A stretch of 9,753 nt of DNA from Thioalkalivibrio nitratireducens (GTDB lineage Bacteria > Pseudomonadota > Gammaproteobacteria > Ectothiorhodospirales > Ectothiorhodospiraceae): assembly GCA_011390385.1 (NCBI GenBank), contig JAABSN010000121.1, forward strand, positions 1 through 9,753. The letters run 5' to 3'. The position numbers and the translations under genes are program-made. Position 1 is the stretch's first letter. Each line of letters begins with the position of its first letter. This document shows positions 1,651-7,618 of this stretch, piece after piece. The notes beneath the pieces were generated by a model that was not told the DNA's origin, did not search any database, and was given only the letters and a program-made list of their open reading frames with translations.

Positions 1651-3465
1651 TCAACTGTCGGCGTAATCGGCGTAAAGCGCGTTGACCTGGTCTTCGAGGC
1701 TGTGCACGATCCGCTCGCGTTTCATCTTCAGCGTAGGGGTGAGCAGGCCGTCGTCGACGGTCCAGGGTTCGCGCAGCGCGGCCAGGCGGCGGATGCGGGC
1801 GTAGCCGGGAAAATCGTTCAGGTGGCGGTTGACGCGTGCCAGCAGACTGCGTTCGACGAAGCGGCTCTGCAGGTCCGTATCGCTTGCGGGATCGACATCA
1901 AGATCCGACGCTACTTCGCGCCAGACCTCGGGGTTCAGTACCACAAGCGCTGACAGGAAGGGGCGCCCCTCACCGACGATCAGTACCTGGTCGAACAGGC
2001 TGTCGAGCTGGATCGCCATCTCCATGTCCGCCGGAGGCAGCTTTTCGCCGTTGCCCAGCACGATGATGTCCTTGATACGGCCGGTGATGAACACGTGGCC
2101 GGTTTCGTCGACACGGGCCTTGTCGCCGGTGTGCAGCCAGCCCTTGTCGTCGATCGCGGCGCGCGTCGCCTCTTCGTTCTGCCAGTATCCGAGCATCACC
2201 GACGGGCTGCGGGTCAGCAATTCGTCGTTGTCACCGATACAGACGTCGACTCCGGGCAACGGGACTCCGATCGACGCCGGCACGTTGTCGTGAGGCCGGT
2301 TCGCGGTCACGACCGGGCTGGCCTCGGTCAGGCCGTAACCGTGGTAGACGGGCAGACCGAGCCCGATGAAGAAGCGGGCGATCGGCGGTGGAAGCGGCGC
2401 GCCCCCGCAGACCGCGTACTGCATGCGTCCGCCCAGACGAGCCAGCACCTTCCTGGCCACCATGCGCTCGAGCAGGGGCCAGAGGATGAATCGTGGCGAC
2501 CACCCGGCGCGTTCCTGGGCATGTTCGAAGCGAGCCCATCCGGTGTCGACCGTCAGACGGAAGAGCATGCGTGCGAACGAGGACCGTTGTTTCAGCCCGA
2601 CCTGAATCTTCGCGTATACACTTTCGTAGATGCGCGGCACGGAAATCAGGACCGTGGGCCGGATCGATTGCAGATCCTCGCCCAACTGCGCAATCGAACG
2701 CGCAAAGGCGACCTGAGCGCCGATCAGCATCGGCAGGTAGTAACCGGCCGTGCGTTCCAGCGTGTGCGACAGTGGCAGGAACGACAGAAAGACGTCATCC
2801 GCGTTCAGCGGGCCACATTGCGACGCCGCATGCGCATTGAACAGGATGTTCCGGTGGGAAAGCATCACACCCTTGGGCCGGCCGGTGGTTCCGGAGGTGT
2901 AGACGATGGTGGCGAGTTCGTCCGGCTGCGCCATCTGGGTGATCAGGTCCCCGTGCAAACCGAACAGCCAGTCCGAGGCGATCTGCAGGCGCGGGTCTCC
3001 GGGGAGTTCATCGGCCTCGATGCTGTGCAGGGAAATGATGCTGCGGACCGTCGGCATCTGATTCAGCGCCGGCTTCAGGCGTCGCCACTGGACCCTGCCC
3101 TCGATCAGCAGCAGCTTCACGTCGGCCTGTTCGAGGATGTAGGCGATGTTGTCGGCGCGATCATCGGTGTACAGAGGAACCGTGACCAGGCGCAGCCCCT
3201 GTGCCGCCTGATCGAAAGCGATCCACTCGCGCGAGTTGCGCAGCATCATCGCGACCCGGTCTCCGGCTTCCAGTCCCTCGCGTCGGAGTGCGAGCTGCCA
3301 CCGTCCGACCTCGGTGGCCATGTCGGCCCAGGTGCATTTCATCCATGCACTGCGGGAGCCGTCATATTGCCGGTATGCGGTCGTGTTCGGGGTGGCCCGC
3401 ACCCGCTCCCGAAACAGTCCGGCGAGGGTTTCGGCCCTTTCCGGGGTAATCGCCGAGTTGGTCAT
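1651..3465 (-). CDS. long-chain fatty acyl-CoA synthetase (AMP-forming)
   Basis: A 604-residue ANL-superfamily enzyme that activates a fatty acid with ATP to acyl-AMP and then transfers it to CoA, usually at the inner face of the membrane. Numbered from the chosen start: phosphate-binding loop YTSGTTGRPKG at about 189-199, substrate/adenine motif YHGYGLTEASP at about 374-384, GWLHTGD at 442-448 and GRIKDIIVLGNGEKL near 462-476. The C-terminal TPTLKMKR segment carries the probable catalytic Lys580. This is the FadD15/long-chain (AMP-binding) arrangement rather than an acetyl-CoA synthetase. The ATG at 3465 is preferred over an in-frame ATG 14 codons upstream because AGGAA lies 4 nt before it and the family's N-terminus begins near here. 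The gene sits 79 nt downstream of the metal permease on the same strand and may be cotranscribed by read-through, but no functional link to metals is evident. It converges on the peroxidase gene. Acyl chain specificity cannot be read from the sequence. Confidence 0.93.
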   Translation of the reverse strand: MTNSAITPERAETLAGLFRERVRATPNTTAYRQYDGSRSAWMKCTWADMATEVGRWQLALRREGLEAGDRVAMMLRNSREWIAFDQAAQGLRLVTVPLYTDDRADNIAYILEQADVKLLLIEGRVQWRRLKPALNQMPTVRSIISLHSIEADELPGDPRLQIASDWLFGLHGDLITQMAQPDELATIVYTSGTTGRPKGVMLSHRNILFNAHAASQCGPLNADDVFLSFLPLSHTLERTAGYYLPMLIGAQVAFARSIAQLGEDLQSIRPTVLISVPRIYESVYAKIQVGLKQRSSFARMLFRLTVDTGWARFEHAQERAGWSPRFILWPLLERMVARKVLARLGGRMQYAVCGGAPLPPPIARFFIGLGLPVYHGYGLTEASPVVTANRPHDNVPASIGVPLPGVDVCIGDNDELLTRSPSVMLGYWQNEEATRAAIDDKGWLHTGDKARVDETGHVFITGRIKDIIVLGNGEKLPPADMEMAIQLDSLFDQVLIVGEGRPFLSALVVLNPEVWREVASDLDVDPASDTDLQSRFVERSLLARVNRHLNDFPGYARIRRLAALREPWTVDDGLLTPTLKMKRERIVHSLEDQVNALYADYADS

Positions 3466-3544
3466 GATGTTCCTGTGTTCGACCGTTGTCACGATCGCAT
3501 GGTGCAACAGGTCGGGGCTGGCTGCCAGTCGATACGGTGCTTTC
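3466..3544 (-). other. 79-nt intergenic gap between permease and acyl-CoA synthetase
   Basis: This is the only non-overlapping junction within the minus-strand block. I see no T-tract hairpin that would terminate the upstream transcript. On the minus strand a TTGCAC resembles a -35 element, but no acceptable -10 follows at 16-18 nt. The only supported element is the AGGAA ribosome binding site for the synthetase near 3470-3474. Confidence 0.4.
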
Positions 3545-4690
3545 CTACAAGCCCAATGGGTGGCGCATCGGTTCGATGCTCAGGGCACCCTGGAACAGGG
3601 TCCAGCCGATCAGAAAGATCACCGTGCCACCAGCGATTCCCACGAGCGGCCCAGCGTGGCGCAGGCTGGCAAGACGTGTTGGTCGGAGGACTCGCCGGGT
3701 CCAGTCCCGCGCCTGCACGGCGAGAATGGCCAGTACCGATACGGTGATGGCCGTACCCATCGACATCGCCAGCACGGCGGCGATTCCCGCCATCCAGATC
3801 CCCAGCAGGTAAGAAACCGCCATGACCAGCACCGCACCCGAGCAGGGACGGATTCCAACGGCGAAGACGGTGGCGTACCACGGACCGCGCTGGTTCGGGT
3901 TCACATGGTGAGGTGTTCCGCAGCCACAGTCGGCGGTGTGGCCCGGCCCATCCGGGTGGACGCGAAGGAGCATTCCCGGGGCGGCCCCGGTGGTGCTGCT
4001 GCCGTTGGAAACTCGAGTGAACGGCGCGGCAGCCCCGCCCTGTTCGGTGTTGCCGCTCGGCGGTTCCAGGTCGTCGGATCGACTGCGGGCCTCGTTACGC
4101 AAGCGCCACAAGGCCCGCAGTCCACGCCCGATCAGCCAGAGCCCGAGCAGCGCGACCAGGAGGAAACTTGCCAACTCCAGATTGCGTACCTGACCCATGG
4201 TATCGCGGGCCAGCCAGCCGAGGATTCCGATCAAAAGTACCACTGCGACGATGGCAGTCACGCCCTGAAAAAGCGATGCTGCCGTGGATAACCAGATGCC
4301 GCGGCCGAGGCTTTGCCGGTTGGTCAGCAGGTAGGTGCTGATCACTGCCTTGCCGTGGCCCGGCCCCGCCGCATGGAAAATGCCGTAGAGAAAACTGGCG
4401 AGGATCAGGGCGGCTGCCGTCCGGACCGTGGGTGCCTCGTCGAGCTGGTGCAGGGCCTTGGTCAGCTGGCGATGGAGGTCGCGCTGGGTCTGCAGAATCC
4501 ACGTCGAAGCCTGCTCGACCAGCGTCGGTTTCGCGCGATCTTCCGCCGCCGACGGGCTCCCGAACGGGTTGGCGGCGGCCGCTGTCGGCATTATCAGCGA
4601 GACCAGCAGCAGGAGGATGGCCCCCCAGCCGGAATGCCGACGACTGAGCCGTGAAATTCCGGCACACATCATCGAAACCCCGTCGCTCAT
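3545..4690 (-). CDS. NicO/RcnA-type nickel/cobalt (or zinc) permease
   Basis: A 381-residue inner-membrane transporter of the NicO/RcnA superfamily, which moves Ni2+, Co2+ or related divalent metals. A hydrophobic signal-like segment at about 22-40 is followed by a periplasmic stretch. The core motif HAAGPGHGK lies at 106-114, and further membrane segments fall at about 135-160 and 172-192. A hydrophilic loop at about 200-268 contains clustered potential metal ligands (His245, His251, Cys255, Cys257, His261, His262). The second hallmark GIRPCSGA is at 279-286, followed by membrane segments to about 325 and a last one at 347-366. The ATG at 4690 is on the base right after the TAG of the DUF1007 gene, suggesting translational coupling. 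Met7, with GGGG upstream, is an alternative start. Pairing with DUF1007 is a known conserved arrangement (HI1248/HI1249 type) and argues for uptake rather than efflux. Metal identity is inference. Confidence 0.88.
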   Translation of the reverse strand: MSDGVSMMCAGISRLSRRHSGWGAILLLLVSLIMPTAAAANPFGSPSAAEDRAKPTLVEQASTWILQTQRDLHRQLTKALHQLDEAPTVRTAAALILASFLYGIFHAAGPGHGKAVISTYLLTNRQSLGRGIWLSTAASLFQGVTAIVAVVLLIGILGWLARDTMGQVRNLELASFLLVALLGLWLIGRGLRALWRLRNEARSRSDDLEPPSGNTEQGGAAAPFTRVSNGSSTTGAAPGMLLRVHPDGPGHTADCGCGTPHHVNPNQRGPWYATVFAVGIRPCSGAVLVMAVSYLLGIWMAGIAAVLAMSMGTAITVSVLAILAVQARDWTRRVLRPTRLASLRHAGPLVGIAGGTVIFLIGWTLFQGALSIEPMRHPLGL

Positions 4691-5512
4691 CTATCTTTCA
4701 TCACAGTGGACCGAGACCGTCTCTGCAAAGGATCGGCCAATATTCTCGACGGGTGTCCGTTGCCCCCGGTCCAGTGTGGCCACGTAGGCGATCAGCCAGC
4801 CCTCGGGCCGAGCGCGTTCCAGCGTTGCTTCGCATCCCTGGCCGCCGTCGAGGTAAATGACATCGCCCGGATCATGCAGCACCTCGATCCAGTAACTCGG
4901 ATCGTAGACCCGGTACTGCAGCGGTTGGGTCCGGTCGGGACGCATCGGGTCGAGCGGCAGTTCGAAGCGCAGGGTCAGTCGGCGCTGATCCCACAGCAAT
5001 TCCTGATGCCGAGCCTCGGCCACCTCCAGGCGTCTCTCGTTCCGGCCGATTTCAGTGAAATAGTCGTAGCCACGCAGGTTGTCGACCATGCGTGCAGTCA
5101 TTCTTTGCAGCGCTGCTTCCAGGTCGAGACCGGGTTCCGATGTGTCCATGTCTTCCAGGAGCAGGTGGCTGTACGTGGGGTCGAAGATCCATTCCTGACG
5201 CAGTGCCTGCAGATCGCCGGCATCGTCAAAGACCAGGCTCACACGCAGGTCGATCCACGCGTGCGGGTGCCCCTGTGCGGCGCCCACCCAAAATGCGATC
5301 GCAACGGGCAGGGCGCGCAGGAGGGCTTTGGCAAGCGAATGCAGGCGCCCAGCACAGGGTTCCGGCGGGTTCCGTCGCGAGCTCGGCGTGGACTGCGACT
5401 GCAGTGGGCTTCCTTTAGCTCCAGCGCCGGTGCACGCAAATGCCTTTTCCCGAGTCACTGGAGTCGGCGGCATTGCCGGTGTGCTGGATAGCCTGAGCGT
5501 GCTTCGGTTCAT
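4691..5512 (-). CDS. DUF1007 family periplasmic metal-binding protein
   Basis: A 273-residue protein of the DUF1007 family, found beside NicO-type permeases and thought to be their periplasmic component. A hydrophobic signal segment spans about 62-79, with likely cleavage after AAQG. The mature protein would begin [10 protein letters not shown], placing His82 and His84 at its N-terminus, a plausible metal site typical of the family. Other family features are the [10 protein letters not shown] segment at about 106-115 and the [12 protein letters not shown] block at about 200-211. The ATG overlaps the cysS stop codon as ATGA. A GGAGG at 5532-5536 is 19 nt upstream, too far for an ordinary RBS, so coupled initiation is likely. 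Oddly, about 60 residues precede the hydrophobic core. The only later start codons are ATG at residue 14 and GTG at residue 19, so the long N-region seems genuine unless a CTG at residue 56 is used. The metal ligand is not established. Confidence 0.85.
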
Positions 5513-6915
5513 ACCTGGTCAGTCGGCACAGCCTCCGCCCGATGCCAGCGCGTGCCTTCGGCCGTGTCTTCGAGCTGGATTCCCGCGGTGGCCAGTTCGT
5601 CCCGGATCGCGTCGGAGCGCGCGAAGTCCCGTGCCTTGCGCGCGGACTGCCGCTCGGCGATGCGTTCCTCGACCCATTCGGTCGTTGCACCATCACCGGT
5701 GTCGCCCTGGAACCACTCAATGGGATCCTGTTGCAAAATGCCGAGAAGATCGCCCGCGGCCAGGAGTTCGGCCTTGCGCTGCGCGGCCTCGGTCGGGTTC
5801 TCTGCGCCCGCGAGCGCGTCGCCCAGGCGATGTAGTTCGGCGATCGCCCCGGGCGTGTTGAGATCGTCGAGCAATGCCGCGAATGCCGCCGTGTCACGGA
5901 CATCCACCGCAGCGGCAGTGGTGTCGGCGTGATCCCGCAGCACGCGGTACAGGCTGTTCAGGCTGTTGCGCGCCTGTTCCAGTCCGCGCTCGGAGAAATT
6001 CAGCGGCGCCCGGTAGTGCCGGGCCAGCAGCGCCAGGCGCAGAACCTCGCCCGGGTAGACGTCCAGCAGGTCGCGCAGCAGGCGGAAGTTGCCGAGCGAC
6101 TTCGACATTTTCTCGCCGTCGACGGTCACGTGGCCATTGTGCACCCAATAGTGGGCGTACTCGACGCCATGGGCGCCGCAGCCCTGGGCGATCTCGTTCT
6201 CGTGGTGCGGGAACACCAGATCGTGGCCGCCGCCGTGGATGTCGATCGTGTCGCCGAGATGCGTCTCGATCATTGCCGAGCACTCGAGGTGCCAGCCCGG
6301 GCGTCCGGGACCCCAGGGGCTGGGCCAGGCCGGTTCGCCCGGTCGGGCCGGCTTCCAGAGCACGAAATCGGCCGGGTCGCGCTTGTAATCCGCAACCTCG
6401 ACGCGGGCACCGGCACGCATGTCGTCGAGACTGCGACCGGACAGCCGCCCGTATTCCGGGTAGGAACGCACGTCGTAGAGTGCGTGGTCGGCAGCGACAT
6501 ACGCGTGCCCGCGCCCGATCAGGCTCTCGATCAGCGCGATCATCTGGCCGATGTGTTCGGTGGCGCGCGGTTCCAGGGTCGGGGGCAGCGCGCCCAGCCG
6601 GGCGACATCCTCGTGAAAGGCAGCGGTGTAACGCGCGGTGAGCACGCCGATGTCCTCGCCGTTGTCGGCCGCAGCCTTGTTGATCTTGTCGTCGACATCG
6701 GTGATGTTGCGGGCATAGATCACGTGCTCACGGCCGTACAACGCGCGCAGCACCCGGAACAGGACGTCGAAGACGACGACCGGGCGCCCGTTGCCGATAT
6801 GCACGAAGTTGTACACGGTGGGCCCGCAGACATACATGGTCACCCGCTGCGGATCGGCCGGGACAAAGGGTTCCAGTTTGCCACCGAGGGTATTGTGCAA
6901 GGACAGCGTTTTCAT
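5509..6915 (-). CDS. cysS: cysteinyl-tRNA synthetase
   Basis: A 468-residue class I aminoacyl-tRNA synthetase that charges tRNA-Cys in the cytoplasm; length is close to the usual 460 or so. It has the N-terminal [15 protein letters not shown] segment with Cys30 and the HIGN signature at 39-42, NITDVDDKI at about 70-78, HLECSAM with Cys212, the [10 protein letters not shown] block at 235-244 and KMSKS at 269-273. Cys30, Cys212, His237 and Glu241 correspond to the Cys/Cys/His/Glu zinc site that discriminates cysteine, so the zinc site is intact. The ATG overlaps the hisI TGA by 4 nt (ATGA), and I see no strong Shine-Dalgarno, consistent with translational coupling to hisI. Its other end overlaps the DUF1007 gene in the same way. 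Placement between hisI and a metal-uptake pair is unusual. Whether this is the only cysS copy in the genome cannot be seen here. Confidence 0.97.
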
Positions 6916-7382
6916 TTCGGTTGATTTGCCGGAGTCGGTTTGGAAGCGGCTGGTTGCTTGCCATAGAGAGCGTCGGGGTCGATCAGGGGGTTATCCGTGA
7001 TCACCACCTCGTGTCCATCGACCCGCAGGAAGAAGCAGTTCGATCGACCCGTATGGCAGGCGGGGCCGGTCTGATCGACCCTTAGCAGCAGGGTGTCGCC
7101 GTCACAGTCGATGTAAAGACCCTTCAGCCGTTGGACCTGCCCCGAGCTTTCTCCCTTGCGCCACAGGCGTCCGCGTGAGCGCGAAAAATAGCAGACCCGC
7201 CCGGTGGTCAGTGTCTCCTCCAGCGCCTCGGCGTTCATCCATGCCATCATCAGCACCTCGCCGGTATCGTGCTGCTGAGCGATCGCGGGAATCAGGCCAT
7301 CAGCGTTGAGCCGCAGACGGTCGAGAATCTCTTCGCGCGGAAATCGGCTCCCCCTGGGCAGATTTTCGATATCCTTGAGCAT
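6912..7382 (-). CDS. hisI: phosphoribosyl-AMP cyclohydrolase
   Basis: A 156-residue cytoplasmic enzyme for the third step of histidine synthesis, hydrolysing phosphoribosyl-AMP to ProFAR precursor. Hallmarks are [10 protein letters not shown] at 41-50, [18 protein letters not shown] at 65-82, [15 protein letters not shown] at 92-106 and [11 protein letters not shown] at 108-118. The three zinc cysteines Cys93, Cys109 and Cys116 and the acidic DCDGD group that holds Mg2+ are all present. It is the stand-alone HisI form, not a HisI-HisE fusion, and no other his gene is visible. The open frame extends upstream to 7595, but the ATG at 7382 is chosen because family homology begins there and GGAG sits 8 nt before it. 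A short Ala/Pro/Lys-rich tail (about 142-156) lies beyond the conserved domain. It is the first gene of the minus-strand block and is preceded by a Zur-box-like palindrome. It could be a second, zinc-regulated copy or the sole copy. Confidence 0.95.
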
Positions 7383-7426
7383 GTTCGGGTCTCCGGTTCC
7401 TGGCCCCAGCGTGTTGCGCGGATGTT

Positions 7427-7441
7427 TGTTACAGGATAACA
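7427..7441 (-). promoter_or_regulatory. candidate Zur (zinc uptake regulator) operator upstream of hisI
   Basis: TGTTACAGGATAACA is an inverted repeat with 5-bp perfect arms (TGTTA/TAACA). It matches the core of the enterobacterial Zur box, TGTTATANTATAACA, at 12 of its 14 defined positions. It lies 45 nt upstream of the hisI ATG and overlaps a candidate extended -10, the usual geometry for repression by a Fur-family protein. It is 177 nt from the divergent AstE-like gene, too far for that to be the obvious target. The match is by eye against the remembered consensus; binding is inferred. Confidence 0.6.
7433..7441 (-). promoter_or_regulatory. candidate extended -10 of the hisI operon promoter
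   Basis: On the minus strand the sequence reads TGTTATCCT, an extended -10 pattern (TGn followed by TATCCT, 4 of 6 matches to TATAAT). No recognisable -35 is found at 16-18 nt upstream. Transcription starting near 7425 would give a leader of about 43 nt. The element is embedded in the Zur-box-like palindrome, so a bound repressor would block it. Confidence 0.35.
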
Positions 7442-7618
7442 GTGTTCGGGCGGCCTCGGCCGGGGGCGCGAGCCAACCCGGAATGCGCAGTGTACTGCCT
7501 GAGGCGGATGGAAGCATGCCGTCGCACTGCCTGCGGGCCCGAACCCCGGTCTCTACGGATACCGCAGTCCTGGGGGGTGGGTCTTCCGGGAACATTCATC
7601 AGATCATGGAGTTCGCGC

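Follow-up and report, generated by a model that had tools for sequence, protein, structure and literature searches.

The DNA analysed here is a stretch of 9,753 nt (the window) from Thioalkalivibrio nitratireducens, a sulfur-oxidising soda-lake bacterium; those relatives of its DUF1007 protein that carry a name and share at least 47% identity are all from Thioalkalivibrio. Zur regulons typically turn on additional copies of zinc enzymes or forms of them that need no zinc. In the window, a palindrome resembling a Zur box stands before an operon that begins with hisI and cysS, both apparently sole copies, and continues with a DUF1007 gene and a NicO-family permease gene. Two questions follow: whether the palindrome is an operator for Zur and, if so, what such a switch is for. 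The preliminary description of this DNA had proposed a zinc-starvation operon behind a Zur box. The Zur part of this proposal holds up, and the rest is partly supported: the palindrome scores like znu sites, is conserved in 6/6 sequences of the window's clade and has a Zur-type regulator in relatives to go with it. Judging from sequence comparison, we consider it very probable that Zur uses the palindrome at 7427-7441 as an operator. The placing of sole copies of zinc enzymes under a predicted Zur operator is likely to be new, Zur-linked paralogs being already known.

Table 1. Predicted genes and regulatory elements of the hisI operon, with their positions in the window.
Feature	Position	Strand	Basis
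Acyl-CoA ligase gene, AMP-binding	1651..3507	-	AMP-binding, 260.1 bits
NicO-family permease gene, ZevB-like	3545..4690	-	Pfam NicO, 122.5 bits
DUF1007 gene, ZevA-like putative periplasmic metal binder, HPHAW after a signal-like stretch	4691..5512	-	Pfam DUF1007, 164.3 bits
cysS, cysteinyl-tRNA synthetase (CysRS)	5509..6915	-	tRNA-synt_1e, 399.5 bits; TIGR00435, 486.8 bits (cut-off 340); aligned to E. coli 1li5
hisI, phosphoribosyl-AMP cyclohydrolase (PRA-CH)	6912..7382	-	Pfam PRA-CH, 118.9 bits; NF000768, 169.8 bits (cut-off 126); aligned to 1zps
Predicted Zur operator (coding strand: TGTTATCCTGTAACA)	7427..7441	-	Sole match in the window; PWM score 20.1; kept in 6/6 window-clade sequences
Putative proximal promoter P2 with the extended -10-like TGTTATCCT, which the operator overlaps	7433..7441	-	TGNTANNNT in 21/24 sequences, including 14/14 ALJ-clade loci without the right arm
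Possible distal promoter P1, CATGCT-N18-TACACT, with its -10-like part some 107 nt ahead of hisI	7489..7518	-	Conserved in relatives

The downstream families named in the preliminary description (HisI, CysRS, a metal binder and a NicO permease) were all matched by Pfam profiles. Its statement that the genes are joined by ATGA overlaps is correct for hisI-cysS (4 nt, 6912-6915) and for cysS-DUF1007 (4 nt, 5509-5512), whereas the DUF1007 gene abuts the NicO gene without overlap (TAG directly followed by ATG, 4691/4690). A gap separates the NicO gene from the acyl-CoA ligase gene downstream, which is possibly the last gene of the operon; a ligase gene follows NicO in 19/19 Thioalkalivibrio loci with the full order. 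The plus strand of the window carries aspartoacylase-like, TauE/SafE permease and di-haem peroxidase-like genes. Among 80 loci gathered by a scan of species genomes (for L002 and L004 the DUF1007 match was taken from the initial scan), the order hisI-cysS-DUF1007-NicO-ligase occurs in 19, one further locus ends within DUF1007, and a NicO match adjoins DUF1007 in 63.

The palindrome, TGTTACAGGATAACA, agrees with the Zur core TGTTATANTATAACA in 12 of the 14 positions that the core defines; between it and the start codon of hisI (ATG, 7382) lie 44 nt. This inverted repeat and its agreement with the core, both reported in the preliminary description, were confirmed: it is the only match to TGTTATANTATAACA in the window at two mismatches or fewer, and 200 dinucleotide-preserving shuffles of the window produced no match to this core, with the same outcome for TGTTA-N5-TAACA.

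For scoring, we trained a symmetric position weight matrix (PWM) on 21 sites that precede znuA-type or porin-znu genes in related genomes. The matrix is not blind to the Zur consensus of the preliminary description, because the training sites were picked by their likeness to it; it is blind to the sites before hisI and in the gap between DUF1007 and NicO, and the znuA sites of G001-G003 are within the training set. The preliminary description had suggested comparing the hisI site with znu sites in this way, and the window's site scores 20.1 against 16.0-23.9 for left-out znu sites, well above most of the background; the hisI sites of five relatives score 21.2, 18.2, 18.0, 15.3 and 14.6. When the 150-nt upstream region of the window was shuffled 2000 times by mononucleotides, no shuffle reached the score of the site. 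After permutation of the matrix columns, 0/500 matrices reached 6/6 hisI regions (4 at most) and 0/500 reached 14/14 DUF1007-NicO gaps (12 at most).

We then scanned 663,593 bases in 39 Thioalkalivibrio loci, each fetched around a DUF1007 gene; this set includes neither the window nor G001, nor four loci that bear the title Thioalkalivibrio and differ in gene order (L022, L026, L028 and L037). Scores of at least 14 were found at 19 positions, 18 of which are accounted for by the operon (4 before hisI, 14 in the DUF1007-NicO gap); the remaining one is at L010:6073 (14.9). Among the loci left out, L022 has one match of 14.4 before DUF1007, and L026, L028 and L037 have none of 9 or more.

Whole genomes were searched with YGTTAYNNNRTAACR, a pattern devised from the collected znu sites. 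Its exact form has 19 matches in 14 genomes, compared with 9 for a reversed-pattern control; three are at hisI, four in the DUF1007-NicO gap, seven at porin-like genes of the znu type (six of these in the training set), one at folE2/dksA and two at ribA-like genes, and two are unexplained. Matches with one mismatch were fewer than those of the reversed control in 8/8 genomes, and this wider search was therefore dropped as evidence by itself. When the sites within one mismatch of the pattern are ranked by PWM score, the hisI site comes first in G004 and G008, second in G001 and G002, and third in G003; the other leading site precedes a znu-type porin-like gene in G004 and znuA in G001-G003. The hisI and porin sites are the only two exact matches in G004, and they have the centre CTGTG in common. 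TGTTA-N5-TAACA occurs seven times in the 14 genomes (three times for its reversed control): once each at hisI in G002, G003, G004 and G008, before a ribA-like gene in G006, at the matching place in G005 (a contig end there) and before the porin-znu genes of G011. Stray PWM sites were also found, scoring 17.5 and 14.3 in G002, 15.2 in G003, 16.3 in G009 (inside a long frame) and, several times, 14-20 in G015 and G016. The weakest hisI sites (14.6 and 15.3) score no better than these strays and rest for this reason on position and conservation, not on score.

Conservation was examined in 24 sequences: six of the window's clade (the window included), four of the T. paradoxus type (L005, L006, G015 and G016, of which only L006 entered a tree) and 14 of the ALJ/versutus clade (L007-L019 and L029). 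L061 and L021 belong to one assembly, treated as G008, and G007 derives from L020. Ahead of hisI, the window, L002, L003, L004 and L061 carry TGTTA-N5-TAACA without mismatch, G001 differs from it by a single substitution in an arm, and the site scores at least 14.6 in all six; hisI is absent from the assembly of G007, which looks like a member of the clade too. The arms of the dyad are better conserved than its centre, and the DNA around it aligns poorly among relatives. Conservation in relatives with the same operon, which the preliminary description had put forward as a check, therefore stands for the 6/6 window-clade sequences; it does not extend to the 14/14 ALJ-clade loci, where the box lies elsewhere, or to the 4/4 T. 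paradoxus-type sequences, where it is absent.

The left half of the palindrome, TGNTANNNT, is more widespread, occurring upstream of hisI in 5/6 window-clade (not G001), 2/4 T. paradoxus-type and 14/14 ALJ-clade sequences. These 21 of 24 sequences lend comparative support to the earlier suggestion that the palindrome covers a possible -10: TGTTAT is a Zur half-site and a TGN-TAT -10 at once, and the element at this position would act as promoter P2. Retention of the left half far outside the clade is also what one would see if there were no operator, merely an extended -10 element with a right arm that arose by chance. We regard that reading as highly improbable, as the right arm TAACA is present in 6/6 window-clade sequences and, within a weakly alignable stretch, in 0/18 others (0/4 T. 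paradoxus-type, 0/14 ALJ-clade). Further upstream, the putative promoter P1 recurs as CAGGCAGTACACTGCG with 0-1 mismatch in seven relatives. In the window, its five clade relatives and the four T. paradoxus-type sequences, the -10-like TACACT is found in 10/10 and CATGC in 8/10 (CATGA in L004, AATGC in L061). An aspartoacylase match is absent from the G015 stretch and lies 3.6 kb off in G016, and none adjoins hisI in either; because the aspartoacylase gene is not beside hisI in these two genomes, the element points to a promoter of hisI. Such a promoter, if active, would keep CysRS made at high zinc.

The regulator was sought in the relatives. FUR-family genes are present in 14/14. The preliminary description had named the lack of a zur gene in the genome as a refutation; among the relatives, a Zur-type FUR match (by score and span) occurs in 11/14, including G001-G003, and no such match was found in G004, G007 and G008, all of which are MAGs. 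Three of the five relatives with a hisI site have Zur-type genes, the remaining two (G004 and G008) being MAGs. The Zur-type gene adjoins a DNA-glycosylase-like gene and, in several genomes, TonB receptor or porin-znu genes (neighbours named by eye). For the two Zur candidates tested, the best NCBIfam model is Zur, at 145.7 and 137.9 bits and under its cut-off of 167. With two to three FUR-family matches per genome, the dyad could bind another regulator, either an unrelated repressor or a FUR-family paralog (Irr-like, or the one encoded close to a heme-receptor-like gene), and this would also suit arms that are conserved better than the centre and exact TGTTA-N5-TAACA sites that occur once each in G002, G003, G004 and G008. 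Nevertheless, a single matrix suits the znuA sites, the porin-znu sites and those in the DUF1007-NicO gap, and the shared centre of the G004 porin and hisI sites likewise argues against a separate regulator, which we consider improbable.

The two enzymes at the head of the operon were compared with proteins of known structure. The Cys, Cys, His and Glu positions of CysRS align with those of E. coli 1li5 and three Cys of HisI align with 1zps; we take zinc ligands to be among these residues, and by these alignments the zinc ligands of both enzymes are kept. PRA-CH and full-length CysRS were each matched once per genome in 13/14 relatives (G007 has none of either) and in 20/20 genomes of a second set, where the counts refer to relatives of the window's genome, many of them drafts, with G014 in both sets, and omit short CysRS-profile matches in other synthetase-sized frames. 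The preliminary description had likened HisI and CysRS to the spares of Zur regulons, a comparison that these single copies contradict; judged from the relatives, both appear to be sole copies.

Sole copies could nevertheless descend from spares, if a hisI-cysS pair from a Zur island had replaced the housekeeping copies. A CysRS tree is consistent with such a takeover in that it separates the Thioalkalivibrio type from that of E. coli and T. sulfidiphilus (100/100) and puts the copy from a Paracoccus island on the Thioalkalivibrio side, whereas the copy from a Pantoea island is placed with E. coli and Aeromonas (its branch is long and its position unsure). The 15 closest Gammaproteobacteria outside the genus, drawn from 274 genomes, are single-copy; hisI is near cysS in 10 of them, in some with pyrC, and no Zur-like site of 15 or more is present in the stretches fetched. 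Since such close relatives with hisI near cysS have single copies and no strong Zur-like site at that place, takeover is not our main reading, and we hold it to be quite improbable. In two close kin, G175 and G287, a site of 14.3 immediately precedes hisI; the DNA there is richer in AT, and in such DNA the matrix is less strict.

The place of the operator differs across the genus. In the ALJ/versutus clade, a site scoring 15.1-26.7 lies in the DUF1007-NicO gap in 14/14 loci, and the best score before hisI is 10.3. The T. paradoxus-type L005, L006, G015 and G016 have neither a hisI site nor a gap site (4/4). In the CysRS tree, the window and L002 group with L006, and ALJ3 and T. halophilus are outside. 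T. sulfidiphilus (L022) has its weaker 14.4 site 80 nt before the DUF1007 match, in a stretch with no hisI or cysS match. As far as these sequences tell, the predicted operator has changed place inside the operon, being before hisI, before NicO or absent; the hisI site may have been gained in the window's clade or lost in the paradoxus type. For 41 loci that do not have this operon type, 9 matches of at least 16 (a cut set after seeing the results of the matrix scan) fall in 77.8 kb upstream of DUF1007, compared with 6 in 555 kb elsewhere. Seven of the 41 have a site of at least 16 within 2 kb upstream of DUF1007, and hisI or cysS matches were found in none of the seven. On the strength of the ALJ-clade gap sites, the L022 site and these seven loci, DUF1007-NicO may be the general and older Zur target, with hisI-cysS a newer one, drawn in only in the window's clade.

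A more far-reaching reading, to which we give an even chance, is that in one clade the transporter's Zur operator came to lie further upstream, the palindrome being completed on an existing extended -10, and that the sole CysRS and HisI thereby came under zinc control, with a second promoter providing a base level. The outcome would be an increased dose of zinc enzymes, not zinc-free spares. In the explanation that we favour, Zn-Zur would, when zinc is plentiful, occupy the palindrome, cover the extended -10 of P2 and repress hisI-cysS-DUF1007-NicO. When zinc falls, Zur would release the site, and more HisI and CysRS would be made from their sole genes, together with the ZevAB-like pair that would bring zinc in. 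The Zur-independent P1, about 50 nt further upstream, would probably hold the essential CysRS at its base level. Two points count against this explanation: an essential single-copy synthetase under repression needs a bypass that is itself conjectural, and T. paradoxus-type relatives manage without the site.

A different purpose is conceivable for the same Zur step. hisI and cysS may be passengers, the selected target being DUF1007-NicO and the operator standing at the head of the operon by chance in this clade. The gap position of the box throughout the ALJ clade, the sites upstream of DUF1007 in loci without hisI or cysS, and the 10/15 other Gammaproteobacteria in which hisI is near cysS without a Zur-like site of 15 or more all agree with this view, which we treat as a serious possibility falling somewhat short of an even chance. 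However, HisI and CysRS are among nine enzyme families with paralogs predicted in Zur regulons, according to the accessible part of Haas et al. 2009 (PMC2770081), and a zinc island on a Paracoccus plasmid combines, in 17 kb, hisI, cysS, DUF1007 and a NicO-like gene with a zinc ABC transporter. hisI and cysS may themselves be the purpose of the switch, or they may be passengers of the transporter.

Both readings give the transporter pair a central role. H59 and H61 of the DUF1007 protein are invariant in 31/31 aligned proteins. We take ZevA to be a DUF1007 protein and ZevB a NicO permease, and a DUF1007 gene followed by a NicO permease gene to be the defining arrangement of ZevAB, a zinc system of Haemophilus influenzae reportedly described by Rosadini and colleagues in 2011. 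By Pfam matches and gene order the window has this arrangement; the Haemophilus pair is not known to be joined to hisI or cysS, as the window's pair is. According to the accessible parts of two reports, ZevAB is a further system for zinc uptake or binding in H. influenzae and aids growth in low zinc (PMC3872050, PMC10563805). By this analogy DUF1007-NicO is a probable zinc transporter pair, and zinc import would follow from Zur control together with the ZevAB precedent; zinc would then be the probable cargo although the family name points to nickel. A DUF1007 profile search of the PDB gave no match at E 0.1, and a literature search for DUF1007 with Zur and zinc found nothing. In the 31 aligned proteins (4691-5443 in the window) HPHAW directly follows a signal-like stretch, so that a metal-binding histidine may stand first in the mature protein.

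Several known systems resemble this operon in part. The znu genes share its operator type under the same matrix, although they encode an ABC transporter, unlike DUF1007-NicO. The znuA boxes of G001, G002, G003 and G007 keep a TATANTATA core, whereas the hisI boxes have a variable centre; because of that core, the hisI dyad was initially suspected of being a non-Zur motif, an idea dropped on the variable centres of the porin-znu sites and the matrix scores. The accessible part of Haas et al. 2009 (PMC2770081) deals with the same two zinc enzymes, with zinc-binding residues kept and paralogs predicted under Zur; those are paralogs, often with COG0523 genes, whereas here apparent sole copies accompany a DUF1007-NicO pair. 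Plasmid zinc islands (Paracoccus sp. MA, L278; Pantoea soli, L277) also have cysS beside zinc genes, and that of Paracoccus includes hisI, DUF1007 and a NicO-like gene; unlike the window, they contain several genes on both strands and COG0523-type GTPases, and their cysS is presumably a spare. In the accessible parts of the literature on Zur with hisI, cysS or CysRS (including PMC2770081, PMC6103462 and PMC10957091), no treatment of sole copies was found, and a search on Thioalkalivibrio with zinc and Zur found nothing relevant. What sets the window apart is that apparent sole copies of two zinc enzymes, one essential for translation, would be tied to zinc supply; if so, the response to zinc running out may be raised zinc uptake together with raised zinc enzymes. 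The three operator states (before hisI, before NicO and absent) are found in sequenced species of one genus, and the steps can therefore be rebuilt and tested.

Some further observations were made on the way. On the Paracoccus plasmid, the gene after DUF1007 (L278:4167-5063) is annotated HflD; read by eye, its sequence looks like a NicO-like permease whose loop is rich in His and contains CGCG. The window's CysRS matches 503 Klebsiella plasmid-collection records, at about 46% identity for most among the matches listed. Between ppiB and the canonical cysS, E. coli (L300:2885-2899) and a chromosome-sized Klebsiella record (L353) have TGTTATAGCATAACC in common, 114-117 nt before cysS, with a PWM score of 18.9 and diverged flanks; the best scores within 400 nt are 12.7 in Proteus and 2.9 in Aeromonas. 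In G006, the sole exact TGTTA-N5-TAACA (L133:8468) precedes a ribA-like gene (GTP cyclohydrolase II), with DUF1538 next in line, and in G005 a like site lies at a contig end (L134:5520), with similar sequence after it; the accessible part of one report lists ribA in the V. cholerae Zur regulon (PMC6103462). An exact YGTTAYNNNRTAACR site scoring 24.0 lies in G009 (L242:5549) between a FolE2-like gene and a DksA-like/COG0523-like pair, all named by eye. Finally, the dyad-like word AGTTACTCGATAACG, which scores 12.5, is identical in G001 (C46:11462), G002 (C265:2004), G004 (C131:4233) and G008 (C118:4436).
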